Shown: positions 6,784 to 38,653 of the stretch, piece by piece
How the letters are laid out: every line of letters begins with the position of its first letter
Numbering within the stretch: position 1 is the stretch's first letter
NCBI RefSeq assembly: GCF_000338295.1
Contig: NZ_ANMO01000029.1
Span: 1 to 43,257, forward strand
DNA: 43,257 nt
Direction: 5' to 3'
From: Rhodopirellula europaea 6C
GTDB taxonomy: Bacteria; Planctomycetota; Planctomycetia; Pirellulales; Pirellulaceae
The notes under the pieces: generated by a model
What the model was told of the DNA's origin: nothing
Seen by the model: the letters and a program-made list of their open reading frames with translations, nothing else
Databases searched by the model: none
Position numbers and translations under genes: made by a program

Positions 6784-6788
6784 CTAAG

Positions 6789-16294: not shown

Positions 16295-16342
16295 GGGGAT
16301 GTTTGTTCTTGTGTGTTAACGGGCAGAAGTGGTTCGAATGAT

Positions 16343-17731: not shown

Positions 17732-17740
17732 GTGGGGCAA

Positions 17741-18895: not shown

Positions 18896-18948
18896 GGTGG
18901 GGCGTCTCCGGGTGAGATGACATGGATGCGTGGTTTACGACCGTCGAT

Positions 18949-20481
18949 TCATTTCTTCTTTCGTTTGGCCTTTTTGCTCATGAACGGTTGCTTGTTCTGA
19001 ACCGAAACGTTTCGGTCGAACAGCGTGCTGTGTCGTTGGTAGTCGTTGTACTCCACCGCCTGCGATTTCCACCTCGCGAGCTCTTGGTCGTACCGCGTTC
19101 GCATCGCCGCCAGCACGTCCGCGCTTGCTGGGTCGTTGGCCAGGTTCACCAGCTCCAACGGGTCGTTTTGCGTGTCGAACAATTCCTCAAAAGGTTCCAT
19201 TCGCTCGTCGCCGTACCACCAGTACGTGTACCTGTATTGCTTCGTCAGGCAACTCAGACTGTGAGTGGACAGCGGTCCGAACACGTTGATGAACGACATT
19301 TGCTCGTGGCCACCATCTTCTGGATCTTGCAGCAGTCCCAGCAGGCTTTTTCCGTCCATGTTGGATGGGATTGGAAGGCCTGCTAGCTCCAGCATGGTGG
19401 GAGCGAAATCGAGGTTGCCGGTCAGTTGCTTGCAGCGGACTTGTTGTCCATTGAGTGGGCTGCGTGGATCGTAGATCATCAGCGGAACACGGGACGATTC
19501 TTCCATCGGCAACACCTTGGAACCGTAGCCGTGTGAGCCACAGATGTAACCGTTGTCGCTGGTGTAGATCACGACGGTGTTGTCCGCCACGCCTTGAGCT
19601 TTCAGTTCGTCGCGAATCATCCCGAGAGCGACGTCGATGGCATAAACCTGTTGATGGTACTTGGCCATTTCTCCGTCGTAGTCATCGTCATAGTGCCACT
19701 CGGTGAAGCGTGGGAATTGCCGACCGAGCTTGCTTTGTGGCGCGAGATGCTTGCTGTATTCCCGTCCAAAGTTCAACGGTTTGGTGAACTGTTTTCCTGC
19801 GTAGACGTGATTGAACCGTGGGTCCGGGGTTGCCGGTTTGTGAGGTGCCTTGAAACTGATTGATAAACAGAACGGTTGGTCTTGTTTCGCCGCTTCACGG
19901 ATGACGTCTTTGCCAAAGGCTGCGTAAGAAAGTGTCGAGTGGGGATACTGCTTGGCATACTTCCGCATCGACTTGTTCTGTGCAGTCGCGTAGCTCGTTT
20001 GGCCTGGCCCGCCGCCCCAGAAGTCGAAGTCGTCTTCACACAAACCTTTGCCATCCACGACCAATCCGAACTTGCCCGCAAAGGCGGTGAGGTAACCGAC
20101 ATCGCGAAGGAGAACCGGATACGATTTGGCCCACACGTCTTGGTGCATGTTTCCGTGTTCGAAATTGCAACCGGTTTTGTATTCGTACATGCCAGTGAAC
20201 ACGTTGGCTCGGCTGGCCATGCAGATCGCGGTGGTGTTGTAGTGCTTGTCGAACAACACCCCGTCACGGGCGAGTTGATCCATGTTGGGCGTCAGGACGT
20301 CTTCGTTCCCATAGCAGCCAACGGAGTAGGTCGATTGGTCGTCGGCGAACAGGAAGACGATGTTGGGTGCCGCTTCGGCGTTGTTGGTTCCGTTTTGTTC
20401 GTCTTGCTGAGCGGACGCGGGAGTACAAAGCGTTCCGCAAACAATCGCGGTCGCAAGAAGAAGTGCTAGGAAGCGAATCAT
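18949..20481 (-). CDS. Type I sulfatase with CMASR active site, secreted
   Basis: This 510-residue sulfatase has a signal peptide (residues 1-24, ending PASAQ). It has the metal site [15 protein letters not shown], and CMASR as the formylglycine site (C87). The third position is Ala where the neighbours have Pro; the broader consensus C/S-x-P/A-x-R still allows modification. [39 protein letters not shown] and a [14 protein letters not shown] block follow. The Lys-rich tail (KKAKRKKK) is unusual. The ATG at 20481 starts the signal peptide; an upstream start at 20514 is less likely. It belongs to a different sulfatase branch from the CSPSR/CTPSR enzymes of the operon. Confidence 0.93.
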
Positions 20482-20617
20482 CGAAGCGTTTCTCGGCAAG
20501 GTTGGTGTGAGCATGTGCGGTCGTTCGGTGCTGATGTCGGAGAAGCAATTGATAGCGGCAGGACGCGAGCCCTCCGGTGACGTGCCGGGCGGTTGGCGCC
20601 GCTCCGCTAAGATGGAC

Positions 20618-23023: not shown

Positions 23024-24235
23024 ATGCCGACCGGCCCAACGGATACGAAGTGTGTGGCACTGCTGATCGAGTCCTCTCGCGCCTATGGTCGCGGGCTGCT
23101 GCGAGGGATCGCCGCTTATGCACAAGAGCAAGGTGATTGGTCGCTCCGACATCAGGAGATGACGATCAACGCGGATCCGCCCTCTTGGCTTTCGCGGTGG
23201 AAGGGCCACGGTGTGCTTGTTCGCGCTGAGACGCCGAAGATGATTGAAGCCATTCAGGGTTTGGGTTTGCCGGTCATCGATCTCAGGTGTTGGCGATCAG
23301 CGGGGAAGATTCCCGGCTTTGATACCGAGCCAGCATCGGTTGTGAAGCTCGCCGTCGATCATTTGCGAGACCGTGGATACACCCAGTTTGGGTTCTGCGG
23401 TTTTGGAGGAGCAAACTACTCCGATCGTCGACTCTCCGAGATGCGGAAATACGTCCGTTCTTTGGGGCATGACGTTGTTGCATACGAGTCACCCGGTCCA
23501 GTTCACGCGACGACCTTTGATGCCGAGCAAAGTGGGATGCTCGACGAGGACGGTTTGGGGCGATGGCTCAAATCGCTTGCAAAGCCCGTTGGCGTTTTGG
23601 CTTGCAACGACATCCGCGCGCAACAGTTGTTGAATGCGTGCCACGAATGCAATATCCATGTTCCCGATGAAATCGCCGTCGTTGGAGTCGACAACGACGA
23701 CGTGATTTGTCCGTTGTGTTCTCCACCGCTAACGAGCGTCGAACCCAACACGGAGAAAATCGGGTACGAAGCGGCAGCGATGTTGGACCAGATGATGGCT
23801 GACGAGAAAGTTCCTGCCGAACTGACTTGGGTACCGGCTCGGCGAATTGTCGTGCGTGGTTCGACTGATTCCATTCCGGTGGATGACGCTGAATTTACCA
23901 AGGCCTACCGCTTCATTCGCGAGAACGCTTGTCGAGGTGTGTCGGTTCAGGATGTCGCTGATGCGGTGCCGATGTCCCGGCGATCACTCGAACGACGGAT
24001 GAGAACTTACTTGGATCAATCGCCTTCGGATCTGATCGCGTCGATTCGTTTGGCTCGAATCAAAGAGTTGCTCGAGACCACCTCGCAACCACTGAAGAAA
24101 ATCGCCAGGCTCACCGGATTCAACTATGACGAGCACATGGCGAAGTTCTTTAAAAAACTGACCGGAGTTCCACCTGGTCACTACCGACGGAAGCATCGTT
24201 TAGAAACAATCACAGACGATGAAATCGATCCGTAG
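23024..24235 (+). CDS. XylR-like AraC family regulator, divergent from the sulfatase operon
   Basis: This 403-residue regulator has an N-terminal LacI-type sugar-sensing domain (about 10-280; ALLIESSRAYGRGLLRGIAAYA, DHLRDRGYTQFGFCGF, IAVVGVDNDDVICPL) and a C-terminal AraC-type DNA-binding domain (about 290-395; MSRRSLERRMRTYLDQSP, and IARLTGFNYDEHMAKFFKKLTGVPPGHYRR). Architecture and length match the XylR family. The gene starts 207 bases from the start of the beta-helix gene and points away from it, the classical position for a local activator of a polysaccharide-degradation operon. The signal molecule is probably a sugar released from the polymer. It is clearly different in sequence from the other XylR-like protein at 4238-5440. 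Confidence 0.9.
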   Translation: MPTGPTDTKCVALLIESSRAYGRGLLRGIAAYAQEQGDWSLRHQEMTINADPPSWLSRWKGHGVLVRAETPKMIEAIQGLGLPVIDLRCWRSAGKIPGFDTEPASVVKLAVDHLRDRGYTQFGFCGFGGANYSDRRLSEMRKYVRSLGHDVVAYESPGPVHATTFDAEQSGMLDEDGLGRWLKSLAKPVGVLACNDIRAQQLLNACHECNIHVPDEIAVVGVDNDDVICPLCSPPLTSVEPNTEKIGYEAAAMLDQMMADEKVPAELTWVPARRIVVRGSTDSIPVDDAEFTKAYRFIRENACRGVSVQDVADAVPMSRRSLERRMRTYLDQSPSDLIASIRLARIKELLETTSQPLKKIARLTGFNYDEHMAKFFKKLTGVPPGHYRRKHRLETITDDEIDP

Positions 24236-24239
24236 CGGT

Positions 24240-24425
24240 CTATTCCGCAGGCACCGTTTCATCGTAGCCCGCGTCCGAGTTGGTCGCCGCCAATTCGGCT
24301 TCGTACTTGGCCAAGTCGTCCGCGGTGGCACCGTCGGTGGCCAGTGGGTTCTGGTCGGACCCGCCACATCCGGACAGGACACAGGCGACCAACATCACAA
24401 GAGAATATTTCAAGACTGAATTCAT
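24240..24425 (-). CDS. Small lipoprotein next to a DUF1559 gene
   Basis: This 61-residue protein has a short hydrophobic signal and lipobox (LVACVLSGCGG), with the modified cysteine near residue 19, then an acidic, low-complexity tail. The ATG at 24425 is the right start; a longer frame to 24515 is not credible. It lies downstream of the DUF1559 gene on the same strand and is convergent with the regulator gene (4 bases apart). Small lipoproteins of this kind often follow DUF1559 genes in planctomycetes. No function can be given. Confidence 0.72.
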   Translation of the reverse strand: MNSVLKYSLVMLVACVLSGCGGSDQNPLATDGATADDLAKYEAELAATNSDAGYDETVPAE

Positions 24426-24566
24426 CGGTTGATTCTCGTTCGAGTTTGTTGTTTCAAAAAAGATGCTTCCGCCCGCCGTTGTAATGAACCCGTCATTGCA
24501 ATGAAGTCGTTGCAATGAACACGGGCAGAAGAAACATGGAATCGTTCAGGCGTCGAAGTTCAGGCG

Positions 24567-25766
24567 TCAGAATTCTTCGGTTGTTTCTTTGGAAGCACGT
24601 GTGCCGAGCGCGCCCCACAATCCATAGGGGCTCGCCGAGCCGGGCACATTGTTTTGCCAAATGTTTTCGGCGTTCGAATTGCCTGCTTCGATGGAGTCAG
24701 TGACAAACCGAACAGCTCCATCGCCCATTAAGACGTGCGCACCACCTTGGTGTCGGCTGGAGACGGTTGCGACCAAGGTCGTCCCCAACGCGTTGTACCG
24801 ACCGCACGCTTCTCGGTTGGGAGGCAGGATCGTGAGGACACCTGACATCAGCGGCAGGTAGTCGGCCCAGCGGTGGCCGCGAGCAAAGTTGCGTCGATTT
24901 TGTTGTTGCCACTCTGGCAGCCAGAATTGTGGCCGCTCGGGATCGACGTAGCCGCGGTCGGTGCAAATGTTGGGGTTACGACGCAACGCAGCAAGACCAA
25001 ATGGACCGGAGTTCCCGCCGTTCGTTGCAACGCTATTGCCTCGTTTGTCGCCATCTTGCAAAGCCGTGATCATCTCACCCATCGCAATGGTGTTGGACAG
25101 ACCATCGAGGGTGTCACGGAACTTGGAATCTTGCAAAGGCATGAAGAACCCACGGTGCGCGGCGCGGGCTTGGCGTGCGCGACCGTTGGTGATGGTCGTA
25201 CGGTTGTTGTTATAAGGTCCGAAGTGCAATTGCCAAATCGAATCACCTAGACAGGCGCCATAGTTGGTCCGTCCCAACGCGGGTAAACCACGACCGGGAT
25301 CACTCGGGCAGCGGAAGGTAGGGATCTCATTGACCCAAGGCATGTATTGAATTTGATCCGGGGTCGGGCCCATCGCCGGCCACGGTGGCGACTGAACTGC
25401 GCCATCGGTGCGTTGCGTGCTGGGATTGGAGATTTGTTCCCATAAACCTTGTTGTTCAATGTATGGCAGCATCGGAACCAAAGCACTCAACCGCACGCGA
25501 TTGCCTGTTGTCGATGTTCTGAACCAAGCATCAGGCGGTTCCGGGTTTGTGCCCGCACCATGCGTGGGCATTTGATTGAATGCGGAATGGTAGTTGTGAA
25601 TAGCAAGCCCCATCTGTTTGAAGTTGTTGCTGCAACTCATTCGCCGTGCGGCTTCGCGGGCTGCTTGCACCGCGGGAAGAAGCAATCCGACGAGAACGCC
25701 GATAATTGCGATTACGACGAGGAGTTCAACCAAGGTGAAACCGCGTCGTTGCCTTGAGTACGTCAT
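24567..25766 (-). CDS. DUF1559 family protein with type IV pilin-like N-terminus
   Basis: This 399-residue protein has a class III/pseudopilin-type leader, RRGFTLVELLVVIAIIGVL (cleavage expected after G9), followed by the DUF1559 signature LPAVQAAREAARRMSC and a long globular domain. The C-terminal part has the family's HVLMGDGAVRFVTDSI. DUF1559 proteins are found in large numbers in planctomycetes and are thought to be exported or assembled like pseudopilins; their role is unknown. The ATG at 25766 is chosen because GGGGAC lies just upstream; longer frames reach 25964 but lack this. Part of a likely two-gene unit with the small lipoprotein. Confidence 0.92.
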   Translation of the reverse strand: MTYSRQRRGFTLVELLVVIAIIGVLVGLLLPAVQAAREAARRMSCSNNFKQMGLAIHNYHSAFNQMPTHGAGTNPEPPDAWFRTSTTGNRVRLSALVPMLPYIEQQGLWEQISNPSTQRTDGAVQSPPWPAMGPTPDQIQYMPWVNEIPTFRCPSDPGRGLPALGRTNYGACLGDSIWQLHFGPYNNNRTTITNGRARQARAAHRGFFMPLQDSKFRDTLDGLSNTIAMGEMITALQDGDKRGNSVATNGGNSGPFGLAALRRNPNICTDRGYVDPERPQFWLPEWQQQNRRNFARGHRWADYLPLMSGVLTILPPNREACGRYNALGTTLVATVSSRHQGGAHVLMGDGAVRFVTDSIEAGNSNAENIWQNNVPGSASPYGLWGALGTRASKETTEEF

Positions 25767-26184
25767 AATGGTCCCCATTTTAAATGCGCTCAATGAATAG
25801 CAGTCATCCAATTTCCGAACGACGAAAACGCATGGGCTTGATAAGACCGTGCAAGCTTTCGCATCTTCGATTGTTAGGTCGAATGACCTTCGACGAATGT
25901 CGATGACTGATGGGCTGTCTTTGAAACCTATCGATTGTGGAACCGACAAACAATGAATTTCCACGGCCGTCTTATGTCATTTTGCGACTGGCAGCGGTGG
26001 GTTGCTGCGCGATACGGGCAATTAGCGTTGGGTTGTCCGCCGATAACGTTCAATTGGTTTTCCAGTGGGTGCGCCTGATTGGGCTGCTGACTCGACGGTT
26101 GAACGCTGTTGGTTTCCGACGATGACAGAGGCAAAGCATCAATCAGCTGCGGCGTCTATTCTTTGATTCGCAACCGGAGAGTTT

Positions 26185-26235
26185 GAGTGGATGCAGCGTT
26201 CGAGTGGATGCACCGTTCGGTTGGATCCAGCGTTC
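26185..26235. repeat. Imperfect tandem repeat, three 17-base units
   Basis: Three consecutive 17-base units share the pattern GAGTGGATGCAGCGTTC: unit 1 at 26185-26201, unit 2 at 26202-26218 (one change), unit 3 at 26219-26235 (three changes), followed by a decayed partial fourth unit. The unit length is not a multiple of three, which argues against a coding repeat. It lies about 510 bases before the kinase gene. Confidence 0.65.
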
Positions 26236-26693
26236 AGATGGATAAGGTGCGATGGGGCAAGTCGTGCTCAATCGTGATGGGCATCGTCTCGTTGGCTACT
26301 GCTCCATTGTTTGACGTGGCGGCTGAAGTTTGGGCTGGACTGCCGGGGCGGCAATCATTGAGATCCGCCTGGTTCGTAGGTCAGCAACGTGCTCGCGGAA
26401 ACAATGGCATTGGCTGGATGCACGCAGTTGTGCCTGGCTCGCGATTGTTCTCGTCTGGTTTGTGGCTGAGACGAGCGGAGGGTGCGCGCTGAATTCGTCT
26501 ACATTGTGTCGAGACGGTCGCATTTTGCGTGCTCACGAGGTGTCCGCTCATCTGCAGCGTGTGCTGACGCCAGTGGTCGCGACACTTTCTACGCAATACG
26601 ACCGGGAGAGGAAGCAATCGTTGAGCGATTGGATTGACGGCATCTCGAGGGGCGGATTCAATTTACGCACCATGAATGGACGCTGAACAAGTT

Positions 26694-26722
26694 TTGCATA
26701 GGCGGATATGCAGACGTAACAT
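26694..26722 (+). promoter_or_regulatory. Candidate promoter/operator of the kinase-KaiC operon
   Basis: TTGCAT (26694-26699) and TAACAT (26717-26722) are 17 bases apart and could be -35 and -10 elements. They overlap an inverted repeat TGCATA-GGCGGA-TATGCA (26695-26712) whose 6-bp arms could bind a repressor or activator dimer. The element ends 24 bases before the start codon at 26747. Matches to consensus are moderate, so this is a suggestion from spacing and symmetry. Confidence 0.35.
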
Positions 26723-26746
26723 CAGAACTGAACGAGCGTTGAGCGA

Positions 26747-29700
26747 ATGACGGACCCGGATTCTCCTTTGATTGTTGGCGTGGGAGCGTCCGCGGCAGGC
26801 CAGGAAGCGTTCAGATTGCTAGCTGAAGCTTCATCGCGAATTGTTTGGATCGCTGACCGCGATGGAAAGTTTGTCGAAGACTCGCCCAGTTGGCGTGCTT
26901 TCACAGGCCAAACACTCGATCATTTGACGAAAACGCAGTGGCTCGATGCTGTCCATCCCGAGGACCGGCAATCTGCGGTTGAGGCCCTGAACAATTCGGC
27001 TCGCGAGGGCGTCGCTGCGATCGAGTTTCGACTGCGGCGGGAGGATGGGGCGTACATCGGCGTGCAAGCTCAGGCAGTGCCTCAGCGCCAAGCCGATGGT
27101 TCGATCGATTGCTGGGTCTTGATGAGCTCCGCCATCGATGATCCCAAGACGTCTCAATCGAAAGAGACTCATCACTCGGAAGCTGCCGAGCGGGAGGCAC
27201 ATCTGCGGCGAGTCATCAATCACCAACTCGGGTTGGTTGGCGTGATCGATCGAGAGGGGATTCTCGTCGAGGTCGATGATCGGAGTTTGGAGATTGCCAA
27301 AGTTGCTCGCGAAGATGTGATCGGGAAACATTTTGCCGAGGCACCGTGGTGGACCTATGACCCAAGCGTTGCTGGCAGAGTGAGAGAAGCGATGGACCGA
27401 GCGTTCGCCGGCGAGGTAGTTCGATTCGATGTGTCGCTGTTTGCGTACGGTGATGAAGGTGTCCGCATCGACTTCATGATCGCGCCAGTAATGGACCGCT
27501 ATGGCGAAGTTGAGTTCCTCATTCCCTCCGGAACAGACATTGGCGACAGGCATCGAGCGGAAGTCGAATTGAAGAAAAGCGAACAACTCGTGCGCACGAT
27601 CGCTGAGAACTCGACCCAGGGCTTGGTGATGATGGATGCCACCGGTCACGTGATCTATTGCAACCAAGCGTTGCTCGACATGACTGGTTTTGATGAAGAG
27701 GAAATTCGATCCGCACCGCTTCATGATCTGATCCACCATCATTATCCCGATGGTCGTCCGTATCCGATGTCAGAGTGCCCGATCGACCGAGCGCTGCCGG
27801 AGGACTTTTCAGTTCGCGCCCATGAGGATCTGTTCTTTCGAAAAGATGGCAGCTCGTTCCCTGTTGTCTGTGCCGCGAGTCCGATCTTTGAGGATGGCAA
27901 ACCCGTTTCGACGGTGATCGAGGTTCGTGACACAACTGTTCAGAAGGCCCACGAAGTTGAGCTCAAACGTGCGTCCGCTCGGCTGGATAAATCCTTGGCG
28001 TTCGCCGGCATTGCCGCATGGGGTTGGGACAGCAATCAGCAGCGTCTGATTCTGGACGGTCCGCTCAGGCGGATGTGGGGTTTCGACGACCAGCAAGATG
28101 TCACGCTTGATGACTTTGCCAAGCGAATCTCACCGAACCATCGAGATCGCGTGATTGGATCGATCACGAATGCGATGAAGAACTTCTCGAGCTATCGCGA
28201 AGAGTACACGATTGATTTGCCATCCGGGAATCAACGTTGGATTCGGGCGATCGGGCAAGTCGTCGCTGACGGGAACGGGGGCATCGCTGATTTCTTCGGT
28301 GTCACGATGGATGTCACCGTCGATCTACGGCGGCAAGTCAAAGCTCGCGTGCGTTCGGAGTTGCTGGAACAACTCAGTGAGTTGACGGACCCGGAAGCGA
28401 TCATGCAGCTCGCGACTCAGCGGATTCAAAAACACTTCTCCGCGTCACGTTGCTACTTGGCCTACATTCGGCTGGACGCTCAGACGACGGAAGTGTTCCA
28501 CGAATCGCACGACGAACATCTGTCGCCAATCGTCGGGACTCATCAGATCAAGGATTTTCTGAATGACGACGAGATGCGAGAGATTGAGTCCGGCAAACCG
28601 GTGCGAATCGATGACATCAGCCATTCGGGTCGAAGTGCCGAGAAAATTCAACAATTCGCAGACCTGGGAATCGCGGCGGTAACACAGGGTTCCTTCGAAG
28701 CGACGAAGATTTTGCATCGGACGTTGTTCATCACCAAAGACAAACCGTATCGATGGCGTGATGATGAGGTTCGCTTCTTAGACAACTTGACCGAGATGGT
28801 TTATTTGCGAATCGAGCGTACCGAATCGCAACTCGAACTCGAACAAGCTCGGGCGGTTGCTGAAGCGGCGAGCCAATCCAAGAGTGCTTTTGTCGCGAAT
28901 ATGTCGCACGAGATTCGGACACCGATGACGGCGATCTTGGGATACGCCGATTTGGTTCGGGACATGGTGGAGAACTCAGAAGCCATCGAGCATTTGGAAA
29001 CGATCCGCCGCAATGGCGACTACCTGTTGGATATCATCAACGACATTTTGGATTTGTCGAAGATTGAAGCTGGCAAATTGGAGGTTCATCCCGAACGATT
29101 TGAGCCCGCTCAACTGATCGAAGACGTCCGCAGCATCATGGAGGTGCGTGCGAAAGAAGGCGGCCTATCGCTCGAAGTTCGATACTCTGGTTTGCTTCCT
29201 AAAACGATTGAATCCGATAGCAAACGCTTGAAGCAGATCCTGATCAACTTGGTTGGCAACGCGATCAAGTTCACGCCAAAGGGTAGGGTGCAAATCCGAG
29301 TTCGATTCAACAAGTTGTTGCACATCGATATCGTTGACACCGGCATCGGGATGAGTGACGAACAACAAAAACGCTTGTTCAAACCGTTTTCACAAGGTGA
29401 TACCAGTGTGACGCGGACCTTCGGCGGAACGGGCTTGGGGCTGGCGATCAGCAAACGGCTGACCGAGATGCTCGGCGGAACGATCCTCGCCAGCAGCACC
29501 GAAGGAGTTGGTAGCACGTTCACCGTGTCGGTCGCGGTGGGCGATTTGGCGGATGTCGCGATGGTAGACTATTCGCACTTATTTGACGTGGATCACGACG
29601 AAATGTTGTCCAAATCTGATGCGGGATTCGCTGGAACTGGCGGCAACCGGTTGGCGGGCGTGCAGAACCCGTTACGTTGCCATGTGCTCGTTGTCGACGA

Positions 29701-30079
29701 TCGTCATGACCTTCGTTTTCTCAGTCGAGCGTTGCTCACGAAAGCGGGAGCAACGGTCGACGAATGCGAGGATGGACAAATCGCAGTTGATTACATGACC
29801 GACCGCTTGAACAATGACAACTGCCCGGACGTGGTCCTTCTGGACATGCAAATGCCCAACCTCGATGGTTATGAAACAGCTCGGACTCTTCGCAGGCTTG
29901 GCTACACGGGATGGATCATTGCGCTCACCGCCGACGCCATGCAGGGTGATATGAACGAATGTTTGGAAGCGGGGTGCAATGACTATCTCTCGAAACCGAT
30001 CGACGCGAATCGAATGATTGGATTGATCGCCCAATTCACCGAGCTAAATTCCGACGCGGTTGAACGCAAAGGCAATTGA
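26747..30079 (+). CDS. Hybrid histidine kinase with PAS repeats, GAF and receiver domains
   Basis: This 1110-residue sensor kinase starts with a short CheB-like piece (IVGVGASAAGQEAF, residues 9-22). Four PAS-like domains follow (about 24-130, 150-270, 275-400 and 408-530), then a GAF-like domain (about 540-690). The kinase core has the H-box MSHEIRTP (H721), N-box NLVGNAIKF (N838), G1 DTGIGM (D864) and G2 GGTGLGLAI. A C-terminal receiver (about 979-1095) has LVVDD, phosphoacceptor D1033 and K1083. No membrane segment is seen, so the protein should be cytosolic. It heads an operon with a KaiC-like ATPase (4-base gap) and a second hybrid kinase. The ATG has only a weak ribosome-binding site. 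Confidence 0.93.
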   Translation: MTDPDSPLIVGVGASAAGQEAFRLLAEASSRIVWIADRDGKFVEDSPSWRAFTGQTLDHLTKTQWLDAVHPEDRQSAVEALNNSAREGVAAIEFRLRREDGAYIGVQAQAVPQRQADGSIDCWVLMSSAIDDPKTSQSKETHHSEAAEREAHLRRVINHQLGLVGVIDREGILVEVDDRSLEIAKVAREDVIGKHFAEAPWWTYDPSVAGRVREAMDRAFAGEVVRFDVSLFAYGDEGVRIDFMIAPVMDRYGEVEFLIPSGTDIGDRHRAEVELKKSEQLVRTIAENSTQGLVMMDATGHVIYCNQALLDMTGFDEEEIRSAPLHDLIHHHYPDGRPYPMSECPIDRALPEDFSVRAHEDLFFRKDGSSFPVVCAASPIFEDGKPVSTVIEVRDTTVQKAHEVELKRASARLDKSLAFAGIAAWGWDSNQQRLILDGPLRRMWGFDDQQDVTLDDFAKRISPNHRDRVIGSITNAMKNFSSYREEYTIDLPSGNQRWIRAIGQVVADGNGGIADFFGVTMDVTVDLRRQVKARVRSELLEQLSELTDPEAIMQLATQRIQKHFSASRCYLAYIRLDAQTTEVFHESHDEHLSPIVGTHQIKDFLNDDEMREIESGKPVRIDDISHSGRSAEKIQQFADLGIAAVTQGSFEATKILHRTLFITKDKPYRWRDDEVRFLDNLTEMVYLRIERTESQLELEQARAVAEAASQSKSAFVANMSHEIRTPMTAILGYADLVRDMVENSEAIEHLETIRRNGDYLLDIINDILDLSKIEAGKLEVHPERFEPAQLIEDVRSIMEVRAKEGGLSLEVRYSGLLPKTIESDSKRLKQILINLVGNAIKFTPKGRVQIRVRFNKLLHIDIVDTGIGMSDEQQKRLFKPFSQGDTSVTRTFGGTGLGLAISKRLTEMLGGTILASSTEGVGSTFTVSVAVGDLADVAMVDYSHLFDVDHDEMLSKSDAGFAGTGGNRLAGVQNPLRCHVLVVDDRHDLRFLSRALLTKAGATVDECEDGQIAVDYMTDRLNNDNCPDVVLLDMQMPNLDGYETARTLRRLGYTGWIIALTADAMQGDMNECLEAGCNDYLSKPIDANRMIGLIAQFTELNSDAVERKGN

Positions 30080-30083
30080 CGAC

Positions 30084-31598
30084 ATGACGACGTATGACTC
30101 GCAATCGAAAATCAGCACGGGAAATCCGCCACTGGATGACATCCTGCATGGAGGACTGACCGCCGATCGGCTTTACCTCGTCGAAGGAATGCCTGGCACT
30201 GGCAAGACGACACTCGCACTGCAATTCCTGCTGGAAGGTGCCCGCAAAGGTGAGAATGGGTTGTACGTCACGCTCTCGGAAACCAAGCAAGAGCTCGAGG
30301 GAGTCGCGGAATCGCATGGTTGGTCACTCGACAACATCGAAATTTTTGAATTGATCGATGCGACCGACGACGCACGTTTGCAGTACACAATGTTCGAGCC
30401 TTCCGAAATCGAACTCGGCGCCACGGTCGACCGTGTTTTGGAACGCGTCAAAGAGCTGGAACCCACACGAGTTGTTTTTGACTCACTGTCCGAAATGCGT
30501 TTGTTGTCGCAGGGTTCACTACGATATCGCCGACAGATTCTTGCTCTCAAACAGTTCTTTGTTGGCCGAGGTTGCACGGTTCTATTGCTGGACGACTATT
30601 CGGGGTTGGATGATCAGCACTTGCAAAGCATCGCTCACGGAGTCATCCGGCTGGAACATCTGCTGTCGGACTATGGTGGCGAAAGACGCCGACTGCGAGT
30701 TTTGAAACATCGTGGCAACAGCTTCATTGGTGGTGCCCACGACTTGCGGATCGTTCGTGGGGGATTGAAGATTTTCCCGCGGGAAGCGACCGACCAACCT
30801 ATCGAGGTCGCCGAAACGCATTTGATTGATAGCGGCAACGAGGGATTCGACAAGTTGCTCGGTGGAGGCTTGAACGCGGGAACCAGTGCGCTGTTTTTGG
30901 GACCTGCGGGCGTTGGGAAATCATCGATGGCGTTGCAATTCGCGATTGCGGCGGCTGATCGAAACGAACGAGCGGTGTTATTCCAATTTGAGGAAAGCGT
31001 GCAGTCTTTGTTCGTTCGTGCGAAAGGGCTCGGGTTTGATCTGCAAAAACGAGTTGACGAGGGCTTGATCCAAATCATCAGTTTGGTTCCGGGAGAAATC
31101 ACGCCCAGTGAGTTTGCTTGTTTGGTACGCGACTCGGTTCAACCCGATGAACAAGGCCGCCGCGTCGGGATCGTTGCCATCGACAGCGTAAATGGCTATT
31201 TGAATGCGATGCCCCACGAGAAGTTTCTCATTATCCAGATGCACGAGATGCTGCAGTACCTCGGCAAGCGCGGCATCCTCACGTTGGTCGTCGTCGCTCA
31301 ACATGGGATGTTGGGACAAACGATGGGGACGCCGGTCGACACCAGTTACCTAGCTGATTCGGTGGTGCTGTTCCGCTATTTCGAAGCCGACGGAAAAATC
31401 CGTCAAGCGATCTCCGTCATCAAGAAACGCACCGGGCAGCATGAACGGACGATTCGGGAATTCAAACTCAGTGAACGCGGTGTCGAAATTGGGCCTCCAC
31501 TGACAGAGTTCAGTGGCATTCTGACGGGGGTTCCTGAGTTCAAAGGCGAGAACGATTCGTTGATTGACCGGGGAGACGCGGAAGGTCGGCCGAGCTGA
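30084..31598 (+). CDS. KaiC-like double-domain ATPase
   Basis: This 504-residue protein has two RecA-like KaiC domains: CI (about 10-240) with Walker A GMPGTGKTT (K41), and CII (about 245-480) with Walker A GPAGVGKSS (K279). The acidic pair used for catalysis in cyanobacterial KaiC is complete in CII (QFEES, E303-E304) but reads SE in CI (S65-E66). At the position of the phosphorylated Ser-Thr pair it has S421-Y422 (VDTSYLAD). Length is near that of KaiC (519). No kaiA or kaiB lies nearby, so a clock is not implied; relatives of this type act with histidine kinases. The ATG at 30084 is 4 bases after the kinase stop; a TTG at 30060 is an unlikely alternative. Its stop shares one base with the next start. 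Confidence 0.94.
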   Translation: MTTYDSQSKISTGNPPLDDILHGGLTADRLYLVEGMPGTGKTTLALQFLLEGARKGENGLYVTLSETKQELEGVAESHGWSLDNIEIFELIDATDDARLQYTMFEPSEIELGATVDRVLERVKELEPTRVVFDSLSEMRLLSQGSLRYRRQILALKQFFVGRGCTVLLLDDYSGLDDQHLQSIAHGVIRLEHLLSDYGGERRRLRVLKHRGNSFIGGAHDLRIVRGGLKIFPREATDQPIEVAETHLIDSGNEGFDKLLGGGLNAGTSALFLGPAGVGKSSMALQFAIAAADRNERAVLFQFEESVQSLFVRAKGLGFDLQKRVDEGLIQIISLVPGEITPSEFACLVRDSVQPDEQGRRVGIVAIDSVNGYLNAMPHEKFLIIQMHEMLQYLGKRGILTLVVVAQHGMLGQTMGTPVDTSYLADSVVLFRYFEADGKIRQAISVIKKRTGQHERTIREFKLSERGVEIGPPLTEFSGILTGVPEFKGENDSLIDRGDAEGRPS

Positions 31599-34450
31599 TG
31601 GAATCCTTGCGAAAAGCGGTAATCGAAGATGAACTAGAGAGCCCGAACACTGATCAAGACAGCAACAACCAACGCGTTGTCGCGTATGCTCCGACGCAGC
31701 AAGATGCCAAACTGTGCGTCAAAATTTTGACAGCAAATGACGTCGCCGTTTGTTGCTGCGAAACGATCGAAGGATTTGCCAGCACCATTCTTGAAGGTGC
31801 TGGTATCGCCTTGATTGCGCAGGAACACCTGACCGATCCGGCCATCGAGCACCTGAAGACAGTGCTTGCCCGCCAACCCAAATGGTCCGAGGTGCCGATC
31901 TTAGTGCTTCTGCAAGCGGGCGATCCCGATTCAGAATTGTTGGAACGAATCCTCTCGCTGGAACACGTCACGTTGATCAATCGACCGCTGCGAATTGCGG
32001 TCTTCATCAACACGGTGCGGGCAAAACTACGAGACCGCATGCGACAGTTCGAAGTGCGAGACCTGCTACTTGAAAAGGATCGAGTCCAGACGAGCCTTCG
32101 GCGAGAGGCGCGTCGATTGGACATGGCCATTCAGGCTGGCGGAATGGCTGCTTGGGAGTGGAGCAAGACGCACGTCTACTGGTCCGAAGCATTTCGACGC
32201 TTGCATGGATTCGGCGAGAATGTACAGCCGAGTGAGTCGGCTATGTTTGGATCGATTGTGGAATCGGAACGCGAACAGATCGCGAATCAATGGTCTCAGG
32301 CGATCGAGCAAAACGCTCCTTTTCGAAGCGAGTTTCGAATCAATCATCCCAAGCTAGGCGAGCGATGGTTGGTGGCTGTGGGAGAGCCGGTAAAGGGAAA
32401 GTCTGGAAAGACATTGCGGTACACGGGTTTGCAGTGGGATATCACGGAACGCAAAACCGCTGAAATGGAACTTCGTCAGTCACATGAAACGTTTCAGCGG
32501 CTGATCAACGACAACCCGCAAGGTTTGTATGTTGTCGACGCAGATTTTCGAATGCGTTACGTCAGTGCCGGTGCACGAAAGGTATTTATCAATGCGGAGC
32601 CATTGATTGGCAGACCGTTCGAAGAGGTTATGAGAACGATCTGGCCAGACGAGTTCGTCGAGGAAGCGATTCGAGTGTTTCGGCACACTCTCGAAACCGG
32701 CGAGCCTTACGTTGCGCCACCGTTGGTGGAACAGCGAGTCGATACCAGCGAGACCGAGGCCTATGATTGGTCGATCGAGCGAATCGTGTTGCCGGACAGC
32801 CGCCATGGCGTGGTTTGTCATTTCTATAACAACACACAACGTCAGTTGTCGGTGGATTTGCTTCGCGAAAGTGAGCGGTACTTTCGTGAGATCGCGGACG
32901 CTTCGCCTGCGATGCTGTGGGTTACCGACGAAAACCACATGTGTACGTTTTTGTCCAAGAACTGGTACGACACGACCGGCCAGACCCAAGAAGAAGGAAT
33001 GGGACTCGGTTGGACGAATGCGACTCATCCTGAGGACCATGAACGCGCCGCCCAAGAATTCTTGAATTCGGCAGAAGCTCGTCAACCGTTCTGGTCAGAG
33101 TTCCGCTTGCGGATGTCCGATGGCAGCTATCGGTGGGTGGTTGATGTGGGACGGCCGCGTTTTGATTCTGAAGGCGTCTTTGTTGGCTACACCGGCTATG
33201 TCATCGACGTGGATGATCGAAAGGCGTTCGAGAAGTCGCTGAAGCAAGCGAAGGTGATCGCGGAAAATGCGAACCGTTCACGAGGTGAATTTCTTGCCAA
33301 TATGTCGCATGAGATTCGGACTCCGATGGCCGCGATCCTCGGTCATGCGAATATTCTGAAGGACCATTTGAAGGATCCGGACAACATCCAGGTGGTCGAA
33401 ACGATCCGTCGGAATGGGAACTTCTTGTTGAACATCATCAACGACATCTTGGATTTGTCCAAGATCGATTCGGGCAAGATGCAATTGGAAACCGATCGCG
33501 TTCGGCCCGATGGTTTGTTGGCGGAGGTCCGCTCGTTGATGGATGTTCGAGCGTCTGAGAAACATTTGCCATTGAAGATTGAGTTCGACGGTCCGATCCC
33601 GGATCTGATCGAAACTGATGCGGTACGGCTTCGGCAAGTTTTGTTGAATCTGGTCGGCAACGCGATCAAATTCACAGACTCCGGCGAAGTGAAAATTCTG
33701 GTGTGCTATGACGGCCCCGGAACGCGAGCTGAAGAGATTGATGAATCGAATTCACAATCGCCGCCTGCCGGTACTTGCCGATTGATCTTCCAGATTGTCG
33801 ACACGGGAATCGGAATCAAACCGGAAGATCAAGCGTCGTTGTTTGAACCGTTTGTTCAAGCGGACAGCACATCGACGCGTTCATTTGGTGGGACCGGATT
33901 GGGACTGGCAATTTGTCGCCGTTTAGCACACGCATTGGGCGGCGATGTCTCGGTTAAAAGCACCTATGGAAAGGGCAGCACGTTTACCTTGACGATTGAA
34001 GCTGTCTCGTCGGGACGGTTAGTGGAGCCAAACCTGTTGATCGATGTTTCGTCTGAAAAGATCAAAGAAGAGATTCGAATTTCGGCGAATATCTTGGTGG
34101 TCGATGACCGTCGTGATATTCGCTATCTGGCTCAGCACTTCATCGAGAAAGCCGGTGGGACGGTCATCACAGCGACCAATGGCCAAGAAGCAATCGAAAC
34201 CATCTTTGCCGAACCGAGGCCCGAAATCGACTTGATTGTGATGGACATGCAGATGCCAGTCTTAGACGGGTACGATGCCACGGCGGAACTTCGTCGTCGC
34301 GGTTGCGAGCTGCCCGTCATTGCATTGACCGCAAATGCGATGAAGAGTGATCGCGACGAGTGTTTGGCGGCCGGCTGCACCGACTACACTACCAAACCAC
34401 TGGACAGTCAAAAATTGATCGCAATGATCGATCGGTTACTGAAGTCGTAG
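31598..34450 (+). CDS. Hybrid histidine kinase with degenerate N-terminal receiver and three PAS domains
   Basis: This 950-residue cytosolic kinase starts with a receiver-like domain (about 25-145; RVVAYAPTQQDAKLCVKIL, then ALIAQEHLTD where an active receiver would have its aspartate). PAS-like domains follow at about 170-285, 295-415 and 425-545. The kinase core has MSHEIRTP (H571), NLVGNAIKF, DTGIGI (D735) and GGTGLGLAI. A C-terminal receiver (about 831-945) has LVVDD, D883 and K933. The core closely resembles that of the first kinase in the operon (ETIRRNG, IINDILDLSKI, ALTA.AM), so the two probably arose by duplication. The ATG overlaps the KaiC stop by one base (TGATG), indicating coupled translation. 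Confidence 0.93.
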   Translation: MESLRKAVIEDELESPNTDQDSNNQRVVAYAPTQQDAKLCVKILTANDVAVCCCETIEGFASTILEGAGIALIAQEHLTDPAIEHLKTVLARQPKWSEVPILVLLQAGDPDSELLERILSLEHVTLINRPLRIAVFINTVRAKLRDRMRQFEVRDLLLEKDRVQTSLRREARRLDMAIQAGGMAAWEWSKTHVYWSEAFRRLHGFGENVQPSESAMFGSIVESEREQIANQWSQAIEQNAPFRSEFRINHPKLGERWLVAVGEPVKGKSGKTLRYTGLQWDITERKTAEMELRQSHETFQRLINDNPQGLYVVDADFRMRYVSAGARKVFINAEPLIGRPFEEVMRTIWPDEFVEEAIRVFRHTLETGEPYVAPPLVEQRVDTSETEAYDWSIERIVLPDSRHGVVCHFYNNTQRQLSVDLLRESERYFREIADASPAMLWVTDENHMCTFLSKNWYDTTGQTQEEGMGLGWTNATHPEDHERAAQEFLNSAEARQPFWSEFRLRMSDGSYRWVVDVGRPRFDSEGVFVGYTGYVIDVDDRKAFEKSLKQAKVIAENANRSRGEFLANMSHEIRTPMAAILGHANILKDHLKDPDNIQVVETIRRNGNFLLNIINDILDLSKIDSGKMQLETDRVRPDGLLAEVRSLMDVRASEKHLPLKIEFDGPIPDLIETDAVRLRQVLLNLVGNAIKFTDSGEVKILVCYDGPGTRAEEIDESNSQSPPAGTCRLIFQIVDTGIGIKPEDQASLFEPFVQADSTSTRSFGGTGLGLAICRRLAHALGGDVSVKSTYGKGSTFTLTIEAVSSGRLVEPNLLIDVSSEKIKEEIRISANILVVDDRRDIRYLAQHFIEKAGGTVITATNGQEAIETIFAEPRPEIDLIVMDMQMPVLDGYDATAELRRRGCELPVIALTANAMKSDRDECLAAGCTDYTTKPLDSQKLIAMIDRLLKS

Positions 34451-34518
34451 CCTCTGCCTTGTGGGGGTCGTGCAGTTGTTAGGTGCTGTGCCAGTAACGC
34501 TTTGAGAACCCCGTCCGC

Positions 34519-34565
34519 GCAGCGGCAGGGGTCGGAAAGCGAGCGTTCAGCGAGATTTCCGGGGG
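34519..34565 (-). repeat. Interspersed 47-base repeat, copy 1
   Basis: Read on the minus strand, these 47 bases match 43198-43244 on the plus strand at 42 of 47 positions by hand alignment; the shared core is CTGAACGCTCGCTT. The copy lies in the 248-base gap between the second kinase and the TIM-barrel gene. It contains no hairpin as clear as those elsewhere. It probably belongs to a dispersed intergenic repeat family. Confidence 0.6.
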
Positions 34566-34698
34566 AGCGACTGTGTTGTTTTTCAACTGGTTTCGCAAGC
34601 CGCCCGTGTATCCTGCAAATCTCTGTTCCACCCCGCCTCATCGGCGCGTGTTCTGTGTTGAACCGCGTTGATCTCACTTCCACCTGAAGCACTCACCC

Positions 34699-35610
34699 AT
34701 GTCTGTTTTGTTTCGTGTTTCGGCGTTGCTTTTGTTCATCGGGTTGTCAGCAAGGGCACTGGCCCAATCTCCCGTTGCGGACGACGACGCGACGACTGAC
34801 ATCCTGCGACAAGAGAATCTGGTGGCTTGGTGCATTGTTCCCTTTGACGCAGCCAAGCGGACACCGGCCGAGCGAGCTCGAATGCTCCGCGAGTTGGGCA
34901 TCCGCCGTTGTGCTTACGATTGGCGAGCCGAACATGTCCCAACTTTCGAACAAGAGATTCTGGAATACCGCAAGCACGGGATCGAGTTCTTCGCCTTCTG
35001 GGGCGGCCATCCAGAAGCATATCGCTTGTTTGAAAAGCACGACCTGCATCCGCAAATCTGGATGATGCCGCCCAACCTCAACGAAGGAACTCAGGAGCAG
35101 AAGATACAGCGAGCCGTCGAGCACATGGTTCCTGCCGCGGAGGAAACCCAGCGATTGGGCTGCGAGCTGTCTCTGTACAACCACGGGGGTTGGGCGGGCG
35201 AACCAGAGAACCTGGTCTCAATGTGCCGTTTGCTTCGTGAGCAAGGATTCGATCACGTTGGCATCACCTACAACTTTCATCATGGTCATGATCACATCCA
35301 CGACTGGAAGCAATCGTTCGAGTTGATGCTCCCGTATCTGCACTGTCTGAATCTGAACGGGATGGTGGATGGCGCCAATCCGAAGATCCTGGGCCTCGGC
35401 AAGGGGCAGTATGAAACCGAGATGATTCGGGTCGTTATGGAAAGCGACTACCAGGGGCCAATTGGCATTCTCGACCATCGCTCAGATTTGGATACCAGCG
35501 AATCATTGACTGAGAACATCGAAGGGGTTCGCTGGGTTCGCAAAGAGCTTCAAATGCCCGGCAGCGGCGGTGCGAAACCGAAGACACCGGCACCCTACAC
35601 GACTCCATAG
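34699..35610 (+). CDS. Secreted xylose-isomerase-like TIM-barrel protein
   Basis: This 303-residue protein has a signal peptide (residues 1-22, ending RALAQ) and then the fold pattern of the xylose isomerase-like/AP-endonuclease 2 superfamily, which includes sugar phosphate isomerases and epimerases. Landmarks are MLRELGIRRCAYDWRAEH, YRKHGIEFFAFW, LYNHGGWAGEPENL, VGITYNFHHGHDH and LNLNGMV, with acidic and histidine residues that could bind a divalent metal. Export is unusual for a sugar isomerase but common for this group in planctomycetes, where many members are of unknown role. It stands alone and is convergent with the PhoD-like gene. Confidence 0.85.
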   Translation: MSVLFRVSALLLFIGLSARALAQSPVADDDATTDILRQENLVAWCIVPFDAAKRTPAERARMLRELGIRRCAYDWRAEHVPTFEQEILEYRKHGIEFFAFWGGHPEAYRLFEKHDLHPQIWMMPPNLNEGTQEQKIQRAVEHMVPAAEETQRLGCELSLYNHGGWAGEPENLVSMCRLLREQGFDHVGITYNFHHGHDHIHDWKQSFELMLPYLHCLNLNGMVDGANPKILGLGKGQYETEMIRVVMESDYQGPIGILDHRSDLDTSESLTENIEGVRWVRKELQMPGSGGAKPKTPAPYTTP

Positions 35611-35769
35611 CAAACACCTGGGCCGATCCGATTCGGTATCTGGTTCTTGCAACTCACAGTTCAACTGACGCTACTTTCACAACACATCGTGATTTCTTGC
35701 ATGATTTGTGGAATCGCCCTTGGCTGCCCGTGTTTCGTGTTGTTGCTTGCGGGATCGCCTTCGTTGTGG

Positions 35770-37182
35770 TCACTCCGCAGCCTGCAGTTGGCTTCGTTTC
35801 AAAGTCATCTCATAGACCTTTTGGTCTTCCATTGTGATGCACTCAAACGTGACCTCAGGATCGGGCTTTTCCAAGTCAAACTTCAGCAACCCAAAGAAGT
35901 TGCCTTCGTTGTAAGAAAAGACCGCTTCTTCTTTGGTTGGATGGGTGTGATCATTTGTCATCTTCGAAGTCTCGAACTCAAACAGGTCATAACTGTTTGG
36001 ACGTTCGATCTTGTACACGTCGGTTCGGTGACGATCGGCGGACAGCAGAATCACGCCGCCGATGTTTTCCGTCTCGATGAAATCGAAGATCTCGTTGCGT
36101 TCTTCTTTCACGCCCCACCACGAATCCCGACCTCCCTTGTCCGCGTGCTCCGTCCACAGCGTCCCTGAGGCGAGAACTTTGAACGTGGCATCGGACGCTT
36201 TCAGCTTGTCCAGCAGCCATTCTTTTTGCTCTGGCCCCAGCATCGTTCCATCTTCGAACGATCGGTAGTACCGATTGTCGAGCATGAAAAAGTCGACATC
36301 GCCGATAGAGAAATCAAACCAACAACCGGGAAGCTCATCACCACCGCCGTATGCTGGATTGTTCCAATTCTCGCGAAAAACTTTCCACGATTCGAATTTC
36401 CAACTCGGCTTGAATTTACGGGGGCCGCCCGAGGAATCATCCACGCCAAGGTCGTGATCGTCGTAGACCGCGTACACCGACGTCGACGCGGTCAGACGTT
36501 GAAATTCAGGTCGTAATTGCCGGCGGTAGTAGTGAACACGCTGCTTCGTACGCGACTTGGGTTGATCGATGTAAACGTTGTCACCAAGCAGCAGGATTCC
36601 GTCCGGTGACCGACCAGCGATTACGTCCCAGATTTTTTCTTTCGGCGGGTTGTAACGGGCTCCACCGCCGAAAGCGACACTGAACGTCGCCTTCTCATCT
36701 TTGGACGGATAAGTCCGGAAGGTTGGCTTGTTGTCGGCAAAGACACTCTTTCCGTTGACCAGAACATCGTAGGTGTACGACGTCGAGGGCTGGAGATCGT
36801 CGAGGTCCAAAAGTGCTGAGTAGTCCATCTCCGCAGAGGTTTCGACGACCTCGCTGGATTGACCGTCCATCACAACCTGCACGCTGGCGGCTTCTGTCGT
36901 TCGAACCCAGATGCGAGCGCTGTGGTCGGTGACGCAGCCCAGCATTGGTCCGCCCAACAGCTTCAAGTCATGCTTCGCCACCAATTCACGAAACTCGGGC
37001 GAATCGACCACGTGCTGCAATCCAGCGTCCGATTCTTTGAGTCCGTACATGGACTCAAGGAAGTAGTGATCCATGTCGCCCACCACCGGCGTCTCGCGGG
37101 GTGTTGGGATCGGCGGCTTGGCGAAGGAAACCGTTGTGGCAGGAAGGATCGCAAGGAGGATCCCGGACAGCATTCTCTTCAT
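35770..37182 (-). CDS. PhoD-like alkaline phosphatase/phosphodiesterase, secreted
   Basis: This 470-residue protein has a signal peptide (about residues 1-21, ending VSFA). An N-terminal beta-sandwich (GPMLGCVTDHSARIWVRT, SYTYDVLVNG) precedes the metallophosphatase part with ILLLGDNVYID, YAVYDDHDLGVDD, FMLDNRYYRS, LASGTLWTE and VILLSADRHRTDVYK. These are the PhoD-type metal-binding blocks in the expected order, so phosphoester or phosphodiester hydrolysis in the periplasm is likely. The ATG at 37182 is chosen because it begins the signal. No Pho-box could be identified. It is convergent with the TIM-barrel gene and separated by about 180 bases from the next gene upstream. Confidence 0.9.
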   Translation of the reverse strand: MKRMLSGILLAILPATTVSFAKPPIPTPRETPVVGDMDHYFLESMYGLKESDAGLQHVVDSPEFRELVAKHDLKLLGGPMLGCVTDHSARIWVRTTEAASVQVVMDGQSSEVVETSAEMDYSALLDLDDLQPSTSYTYDVLVNGKSVFADNKPTFRTYPSKDEKATFSVAFGGGARYNPPKEKIWDVIAGRSPDGILLLGDNVYIDQPKSRTKQRVHYYRRQLRPEFQRLTASTSVYAVYDDHDLGVDDSSGGPRKFKPSWKFESWKVFRENWNNPAYGGGDELPGCWFDFSIGDVDFFMLDNRYYRSFEDGTMLGPEQKEWLLDKLKASDATFKVLASGTLWTEHADKGGRDSWWGVKEERNEIFDFIETENIGGVILLSADRHRTDVYKIERPNSYDLFEFETSKMTNDHTHPTKEEAVFSYNEGNFFGLLKFDLEKPDPEVTFECITMEDQKVYEMTLKRSQLQAAE

Positions 37183-37363
37183 GGTGGCGTTCTGTGGGAG
37201 AGTCTGGCGTGGCCCGTTTGAAGGAGGGGCGACCATGTTATCACAGCCAGGTTGCCAACTGGGGAGAGATGCCTGGAACGTCAGGCAATCGCTGATGCGG
37301 TGGAAAGAGTGACGGCTTCTTTGGGGAAGGACTTCTTGCGTCGTCCACTACGGTTCAGATTGC

Positions 37364-38653
37364 TCATGGCATGCAGGAATCCAATGTCATCAAGACAAAC
37401 CCGGTGCCGTAGGGTTGGTGGTAGTCGTACAGCGGGTAATCCCACCACGAACCGTCGGATTCTTGCCGATCCAGCATCAGCTTGGCCAGCATCGATTGAT
37501 ATGGCGCACGTTCGTCTGCGGGCAACAAATCCATTCCCACTGCGGCGTAGTAGTGGCCAAAGAAGTAGAAGTATCCGGCCACTTGCATCCAGGCTTCGTG
37601 GGGAATCGGTCGCTTGCGGCCAATGTCGAGCCAGCCATTGCGTAGATAAAGCCGGCAAAGCCAAACCTTCACGACGTCGTCGGTGATTTTGGAATCGCCC
37701 CAAACTCGCATTGCCGCGTTGCAGCACTGGGACCGGCCGAGACTGCCGCCCGGACGATTGATCTCGCGCATCGGTCGGTACTGCAAGTCTTCGCTATATA
37801 AATAGCTGAAGTCGGGTTTCTGTTGTCTCCCTAACGCAGCCACCGCCCGATCCACCATACGCTTGGGCGGAGTGATACCGAGCGAGTCGGCTTCCTTCAG
37901 GGCAACCAACACCGCTCCGTTGACAAAACTGGTCGACGACGACGTTGGCTGGTCGGCTTGATAACGAAAGTCGTAGTAGCCCCAACCACCGTCGACCGAT
38001 TCGTAACGCTGCAGCATTTCGAATTGATCCTGGATCAGACTGACGATGCTGCCTTGGCGATCCGCATCGTCCTTGTGCCATTCATGCAAACGCACCAGGG
38101 CCTGGATCGAATAGCCATGCCCCCAGACGTTGTACACGGCCGAGCCATCCGCTCGACGCAGCTTCGGCAATTCGCGGAATAACCATGTTTCCGCTCGTTC
38201 AACCGAATCGCGAACTTGTGCTCGCAAACTTTGTTCGGGTGCATCCGCCGGCAAGTGTTCGAAAGTGTCAATCAACCCAGCGATTCCTAACGACGTGGTC
38301 GCGGCTCGAAACGCATGGTGTGCTCCAGGAACCGGGGCGTAGATATTCAGACCTTTCGTCCGAGTCGGTGATCCCCAAGAACCGTTCGGGTTCTGGTCTT
38401 CGAGCATGAACTCGATGCCACGCACGATCGCTGAGCGAATATCCGATTCGGTGGGTGCATCAATTTCAGGTGGCACGGGGGTGCGAGTCACATCGAAGTG
38501 CGCCACCGCCGGTAACTCTTCCGCATGGGATGGCGAGCTCAACACCAGCGGACAAAAGACAGCAATCACCAACACGCAGCGAAGAGACGATCTTCGAATG
38601 AGCCGAGTGACCAAAGTCATCGTGAAAGATTGTTCGGTTTGCTTGATGTTCAT
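37364..38653 (-). CDS. Squalene-cyclase/prenyltransferase-like alpha-toroid protein, secreted
   Basis: This 429-residue protein has a hydrophobic export signal (about residues 24-44, ending PSHAE). It has several repeats of the terpenoid cyclase/prenyltransferase alpha-alpha barrel type: GIEFMLEDQNPNGSWGS, YESVDGGWGYYDF, RQESDGSWWDYPLYDY and related helix pairs. The catalytic DxDD motif of squalene-hopene cyclases is not visible, and secretion also argues against a cyclase. It probably serves as a structural or binding toroid; such proteins are frequent in planctomycetes. The start lies 25 bases after the stop of the HlyD-like gene, so the two probably form one unit. GGGA lies upstream of the ATG. 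Confidence 0.85.
   Translation of the reverse strand: MNIKQTEQSFTMTLVTRLIRRSSLRCVLVIAVFCPLVLSSPSHAEELPAVAHFDVTRTPVPPEIDAPTESDIRSAIVRGIEFMLEDQNPNGSWGSPTRTKGLNIYAPVPGAHHAFRAATTSLGIAGLIDTFEHLPADAPEQSLRAQVRDSVERAETWLFRELPKLRRADGSAVYNVWGHGYSIQALVRLHEWHKDDADRQGSIVSLIQDQFEMLQRYESVDGGWGYYDFRYQADQPTSSSTSFVNGAVLVALKEADSLGITPPKRMVDRAVAALGRQQKPDFSYLYSEDLQYRPMREINRPGGSLGRSQCCNAAMRVWGDSKITDDVVKVWLCRLYLRNGWLDIGRKRPIPHEAWMQVAGYFYFFGHYYAAVGMDLLPADERAPYQSMLAKLMLDRQESDGSWWDYPLYDYHQPYGTGFVLMTLDSCMP

Follow-up and report, generated by a model that had tools for sequence, protein, structure and literature searches.

Gene-order conservation of a KaiC-like ATPase and its downstream histidine kinase in Rhodopirellula europaea 6C, with an optional upstream kinase

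Introduction

The window analysed here, a stretch of 43,257 nucleotides at the start of contig NZ_ANMO01000029.1 of the planctomycete Rhodopirellula europaea 6C (genome size, 7.19 Mb), carries a gene for a double-domain KaiC-like ATPase between the genes of two hybrid histidine kinases (HKs), referred to as HK1 and HK2. KaiB-less KaiC-like genes occur in many bacteria, and the precedents linking KaiC to kinases are SasA and CikA. Is the operon of Rhodopirellula the blueprint of a fixed three-part complex, in which the ATPase couples or times two sensory inputs, as the first-pass annotation of this DNA had proposed, or is a smaller unit being conserved? Judged by gene order across genomes and plasmids, the conserved unit is the pair formed by kaiC and HK2, not the trio. 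HK1 is, by the same comparison, an optional member of the operon, and the pair persists without it. The features on which the argument rests are the following:

26747..30079, plus strand: HK1, hybrid histidine kinase; ATG start, TGA stop at 30077-30079
30084..31598, plus strand: kaiC-like gene, double-domain RecA/KaiC-type ATPase; ATG at 30084, TGA stop at 31596-31598
31598..34450, plus strand: HK2, hybrid histidine kinase and conserved partner of KaiC; ATG at 31598
31658..32092, plus strand: N-terminal domain of HK2 (Nt), about residues 21-165, supported by the alignment, PDB sequence matches, an AlphaFold2 model and fold matches

The kinase-KaiC-kinase order, the coordinates and the two junctions reported at first pass were all recovered: HK1 and kaiC are separated by 4 bases, and the kaiC stop codon shares 1 base with the ATG of HK2. 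From this overlap, kaiC and HK2 are likely to be co-transcribed. A longer kaiC product could start from a TTG at 30060, but this start is less likely because homology begins near residue 8.

Results

A KaiC subfamily is followed by one N-terminal kinase domain

A first scan of contigs gave two loci, and the survey was widened to genomes and plasmids. The resulting 53 loci, picked as KaiC matches, comprise the window, 19 planctomycete loci, 12 loci from a sample of the phylum (all seven genomes other than that of the window with a KaiC of at least 629 bits, and five weaker ones) and 21 plasmid loci taken from 284 plasmid records with a match; five of these plasmid loci (H4, H7, H22, H30, H31) were already listed with a second, possibly partner, gene name when they were picked. 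Loci L114 and L115, the other two of the 14 stretches taken from that sample, were left out since they had been chosen by their Nt, and L038 since it comes from the same genome as L028. All counts rest on profile searches of all open reading frames (ORFs); simple ORF calling puts genes in the wrong place where GC content is high, as at L120.

Of the 43 loci with a KaiC score of 614 bits or more, 42 have an Nt on the same strand, 5-92 bases past the kaiC stop codon, the sole exception being a haloarchaeon with a downstream kinase that lacks it. Sixteen of these 43 close loci supplied the sequences for the Nt profile, and the domain stands just after kaiC in 26 of the 27 that took no part in its construction. 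Conversely, no Nt was found at any of the ten loci with a KaiC below 320 bits, including a kaiC-kaiB-HK locus. The domain is followed by a kinase domain in the same ORF at 41 of the 42 loci (36 recognized by the core model, plus five HWE kinases); in L158, on a Neorhizobium plasmid (5969-7448), Nt and kinase domain are split between two ORFs that overlap in different frames. Within the genus, this kaiC is present in 9 of 13 genomes and is followed by an Nt-kinase in all nine.

The phylum sample of 294 genomes, with scoring restricted to the best candidates of each genome, gives the same picture from both directions. All nine KaiC matches of at least 629 bits are followed by an Nt. Conversely, 11 Nt matches reach at least 109 bits, with the next one down at 35 bits, and 9 of these 11 come after such a KaiC. 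The nine KaiC matches, two of which belong to the genome of the window, are part of the set of 43 loci, and the two counts are thus not independent. The two orphans, G207:C255 (L114) and G235:C31 (L115), have no neighbouring KaiC in a tblastn search of those stretches. The Nt-bearing gene of L114 has HisKA and REC matches and none to HATPase. A second pair occurs in the genome of the window itself, on contig C147 at 4785-7953 (L029), with a KaiC 47% identical to that of the window, its own Nt-kinase and no detected upstream kinase.

Because 42 of the 43 close loci keep an Nt just downstream of kaiC, KaiC and HK2 are probably partners. The signalling complex envisaged at first pass would thus survive for these two proteins and lose HK1 as an obligate component; likewise, the conservation of gene order that had been put forward as a check holds for the pair and largely fails for the trio. 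In a mirror-tree comparison that tested for co-evolution with KaiC, the Nt was not favoured over the kinase core (a core could be aligned in 36 of the 42 pairs, 25 after thinning).

The Nt is a predicted pseudo-receiver

HK1 and HK2 both combine HisKA, HATPase_c and REC domains in a single chain, as expected of hybrid kinases. In HK2, Pfam places a PAS array, HisKA (561-626), HATPase (674-801) and REC (832-944) behind the Nt, a domain of about 140 residues at the N-terminal end. Compared with PDB sequences, the Nt profile matched receivers, and neither KaiB nor SasA nor CikA is among its 50 PDB matches. The AlphaFold2 model (predicted local distance difference test score, 85) has a predicted topology of five alternating strand-helix units, and fold comparison of this model returned receiver-fold matches; the absence of CikA and KaiB from these fold lists is by itself no evidence. 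Pfam gave no match for the Nt of the window, and across the 16 aligned Nt rows it returned Receiver_CRE1 in two (best E 0.0077) and AbfS_sensor in one (E 0.0004). A relationship to the KaiB/SasA-type domain is therefore unsupported, since the profile matched receivers and the predicted topology is receiver-like.

The residues on which receiver phosphorylation depends are largely missing. Read by eye in the alignment, the window row lacks the acidic pair after strand 1, Arg-Pro is present in 14 of the 16 rows and Lys-Pro in none; an Asp occupies either candidate column after strand 3 (HK2 residues 74 and 75) in a single row, that of L029. With a receiver fold in the model and a loss of phosphorylation residues in the alignment, the Nt is taken as a predicted pseudo-receiver that lacks the usual phospho-Asp, and we propose that it serves as the docking domain for KaiC.

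The domain is joined to three classes of kinase across the loci, HisKA, HWE and HisKA_3. Within the genus also, it is found on different kinase cores, because the HK2 core groups with the fourth gene of an Aporhodopirellula locus (support 99/88) and not with the Nt-kinase of that locus, in a tree that carries long-branch warnings. This locus, L028 3365-16274 of Aporhodopirellula aestuarii, contains four genes: a giant PAS kinase, kaiC, a short Nt-kinase and a PAS kinase. The comparison suggests that the HK2 of the window may have arisen by domain shuffling and fusion from such a four-gene version.

The KaiC-like protein has two ATPase domains and no detected Kai partners

Both halves of the KaiC-like protein match PF06745, two Walker A motifs are present, and Pfam matched no added effector domain. 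In phmmer searches the protein matches solved KaiC chains at E values of about 1e-47 to 1e-51 (6.5e-47 for chain 1u9i), although it reaches neither of the cut-offs for circadian KaiC equivalogs (167 bits against 546 for TIGR02655; 247.9 against 408 for PRK09302). Its acidic pair is Glu-Glu in CII (FEES) and Ser-Glu in CI. Residues S421-Y422 align with S431-T432 of SynKaiC, and T416 with T426; these site numbers of SynKaiC are also those in the available text of PMC5520375.

The KaiABC oscillator requires both KaiA and KaiB. As first noted from the operon and now borne out at the scale of the whole genome, neither was detected: no KaiA family match was found, and KaiB (PF07689) has no match at E <= 0.001 in this genome and none in any of the 13 genus genomes. 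The absence of PF07689 matches extends to the N-terminal KaiB-like domain that marks SasA-type kinases. Without KaiA and KaiB, nothing in the evidence gathered here suggests a clock, and the annotation 'circadian clock protein KaiC' that such loci are sometimes given is alone no ground to call them clocks.

HK1 is patchily distributed and decays

According to Pfam, HK1 consists of a PAS array, GAF (548-685), HisKA (712-776), HATPase (824-929) and REC (980-1093). No Nt was matched in it or in its two orthologues. An upstream kinase was detected at 5 of the 43 close KaiC loci (the window, G004, G005, Aporhodopirellula and TBK1r), using a HisKA-type model and a 500-base limit that may miss other classes, and the trio as a conserved unit is thereby rejected. 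Among the nine genus genomes with kaiC, four have an upstream kinase (that of the window, G004, G005 and G008, the last with a protein of 2176 residues), and, apart from the window, the 13 genus genomes have near-full-length matches to HK1 itself in G004 and G005 alone. In two of these nine, G002 and G009, a fossil was found instead:

L032 8539-8703 and L033 8709-8873: HK1 remnants that immediately precede kaiC in two congeners

These remnants correspond to the last 55 residues of HK1, at 53-55% identity and without its stop codon; each adjoins a second short HK1 block, and kaiC and HK2 are intact. Since remnant blocks remain and the sequence between them is missing, HK1 was once present and later lost in G002 and G009. 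No such fossil was found in G001, G007 or G010.

The first-pass description of the two kinases as similar in their cores and wholly different at the N-terminus needs qualifying on both counts. The HK1 and HK2 cores are 41% identical over 458 residues; HK1 shares more, 62% over 425 residues, with another kinase of this genome that is unlinked to kaiC. The N-termini do differ over the first ~150 residues; beyond these both proteins have PAS domains, which are 25% identical over 153 residues (E 2e-13). A recent tandem duplication of one kinase into the other is rejected on the divergence of the cores and their placement in different clades; DNA repeats (of at least 25 bases) across the operon are short and weak.

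Outside its orthologues, HK1 has its nearest core in G008/Aporhodopirellula, in the giant kinase encoded ahead of kaiC (69%); giant kinases unlinked to kaiC come next (G007:C2 and C28 of the window's own genome, 67%). Given this order of relatedness, an upstream kinase may be old in the group and repeatedly lost, or recruited more than once, and the tree does not separate the two courses. Read by eye, the first ~20 residues of HK1 (26747-26810) resemble the start of the CheB-like domain in the giant kinases of C28 and Aporhodopirellula, and in TBK1r the giant kinase encoded before kaiC has a CheB_methylest match. The simplest reading of these likenesses is that HK1 would be a CheB-PAS-type kinase shortened by an internal deletion.

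Might HK1 then be a passenger that belongs to a large local family of PAS-kinases, happens to lie upstream and signals independently of KaiC? Its close relationship to the giant kinases unlinked to kaiC and its patchy, decaying presence are what would be expected of a passenger, but the 4-base spacing and the purifying selection described below suggest useful co-expression, and the position upstream of kaiC may be inherited, because the nearest non-orthologous core also sits there. We regard this explanation as possible, on the unlikely side.

Surroundings of the operon

Upstream, the operon is flanked by a divergent gene:

24567-25964, minus strand: upstream neighbour of the operon

Further upstream, 23024-24232 encodes a regulator that has both a periplasmic-binding-protein-like domain and a helix-turn-helix of the AraC type, and the minus strand at 10820-20514 carries a gene of the sialic-acid-esterase type and two sulfatase genes, of which one contains two sulfatase stretches. 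Past HK2, the next plus-strand ORF starts at 34699, 248 bases on, and has a sub-cut-off match of the sugar-isomerase type; no DNA-binding gene lies close behind, in agreement with the first-pass statement that the operon contains no downstream DNA-binding regulator. Promoter and terminator scans gave counts within chance, and an Rfam search of 24000-37500 gave no match.

Discussion

On balance, and with modest confidence, we favour a two-gene module made of a KaiC-like ATPase and an HK2 that reads it, with HK1 as an optional second input. By analogy with SasA and CikA, KaiC would dock on HK2 and gate it. The ATPase would form the usual hexameric ring, whose ATP/ADP content and Ser421 phosphorylation would decide whether the Nt pseudo-receiver of HK2 docks; docking would switch the autophosphorylation of HK2 on or off, jointly with ligands of the PAS domains. 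Phosphate could then pass from the HK2 histidine to its own C-terminal REC, on to a histidine phosphotransfer (HPt) domain encoded elsewhere and finally to an unlinked response regulator, while HK1, expressed together with the pair as a second sensor, would probably feed the same relay. The genome has ten Hpt matches, all in open frames of at least 453 residues, and no free-standing HPt was seen among them. Docking, gating, the relay partners and the role of HK1 are the inferred parts of this scheme.

The direction of signalling could also be reversed, with KaiC as the output: HK2, perhaps together with HK1, would control the ATPase by phosphorelay or direct contact, and the ATPase would act on other targets, like the proposed archaeal KaiC-like hubs. 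SasA and CikA tie KaiC to kinases, HK2 has its own REC for a relay, and the KaiC-like protein lacks a matched effector domain, all of which make this reversal improbable in our view. In its favour are an operon without a DNA-binding output gene and, in the available text of PMC5847659, KaiC-receiver fusions in Methanosarcinaceae.

The obligate complex proposed at first pass, with KaiC holding HK1 and HK2 in a fixed ratio, fares poorly and appears to us very doubtful. It accounts well for the tight junctions and for the purifying selection acting on all three genes, whose ratios of nonsynonymous to synonymous substitution rates (dN/dS) lie between 0.05 and 0.11 when this genome is compared with two congeners; a trio-like order, with other kinases, also exists in TBK1r and in Aporhodopirellula, where the giant upstream kinase has the core closest to that of HK1. 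However, intact HK1 evolves at a dN/dS of 0.08-0.11 against 0.05-0.06 for HK2, a ratio of 1.5-1.9, neither HK1 nor its orthologues have a matched Nt, and the scarcity of upstream kinases, together with the fossils beside intact kaiC-HK2 pairs, is hard to reconcile with a stoichiometric partner.

Quite improbable, too, is a KaiB-less hourglass, an idea raised for a Ramlibacter pair in the available text of PMC3164672, in which phosphorylation of Ser421 would build up or decay over hours and HK2 would report its level: T416, S421 and Y422 do stand at the T426/S431/T432 positions, CII retains both acidic residues and the published group shows the same site pattern, but KaiA and KaiB are unmatched, a Tyr takes the place of T432 and CI has Ser-Glu instead of Glu-Glu.

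Returning to the two-gene module, we tentatively raise a broader possibility, namely that the Nt is a portable, KaiB-independent pseudo-receiver for reading KaiC, spread over at least three kinase classes and two bacterial phyla, and that a second kinase, added in this planctomycete lineage, would let a single KaiC ring integrate two sensory kinases. Inherited along with a single KaiC subfamily even where the kinase cores differ, this small domain is a likely point of contact, which binding experiments can test.

How does this locus compare with known systems? It shares a double-domain KaiC with the cyanobacterial KaiABC system, where kinases read the clock. It departs from that system by its genome without a match to KaiA, KaiB or a SasA-like KaiB-type domain, and by the Tyr at the position of T432. 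In contrast to the proposed role of the Nt, the pseudo-receiver of CikA binds KaiB, which was not found in the genome of the window. That CikA uses such a domain is stated in the available text of PMC12632262. An HK also neighbours KaiC in the kaiC-kaiB-HK operons of the first kaiC context, as in Falsirhodobacter (L170), but there the KaiC scores 254 bits with the present profile, kaiB adjoins and the locus gave no Nt match. Among archaeal KaiC-like hubs, the haloarchaeal plasmid locus L053 has a PAS histidine kinase gene right behind a KaiC-like gene, again with no Nt found at the locus; a HalX gene lies just upstream.

The closest counterpart is the 'second kaiC context' of De Luca et al. 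2011, which the available text of PMC3164672 describes as a kaiC with a specific HK, no kaiB and SY, TY or SF phosphosites. The example given is the Rta_04330 KaiC/Rta_04340 HK pair of Ramlibacter tataouinensis, found to be cotranscribed by reverse transcription-polymerase chain reaction, and for its type of N-terminal domain that paper drew a likeness both to a receiver and to KaiB/SasA. The locus of the window agrees in having a specific HK with a conserved N-terminal domain right after kaiC, the Ser-Tyr version of the phosphosite pattern and a genome without a kaiB match; by position and description, the HK2 Nt may correspond to the domain called RtaNt. It differs in the additional HK1 before kaiC and in the receiver likeness found here for the Nt. 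The string 'Planctomycet' does not occur in the main text of PMC3164672, and our literature search found no publication on KaiC in Rhodopirellula, though the locus may have been published all the same. The pair fits this second context as a known kind of KaiC-kinase pair, here with an extra kinase. To that context we add its presence in planctomycetes, the Nt as a predicted pseudo-receiver, and the occurrence of this domain on three kinase classes and on kinase cores that differ inside a single genus.
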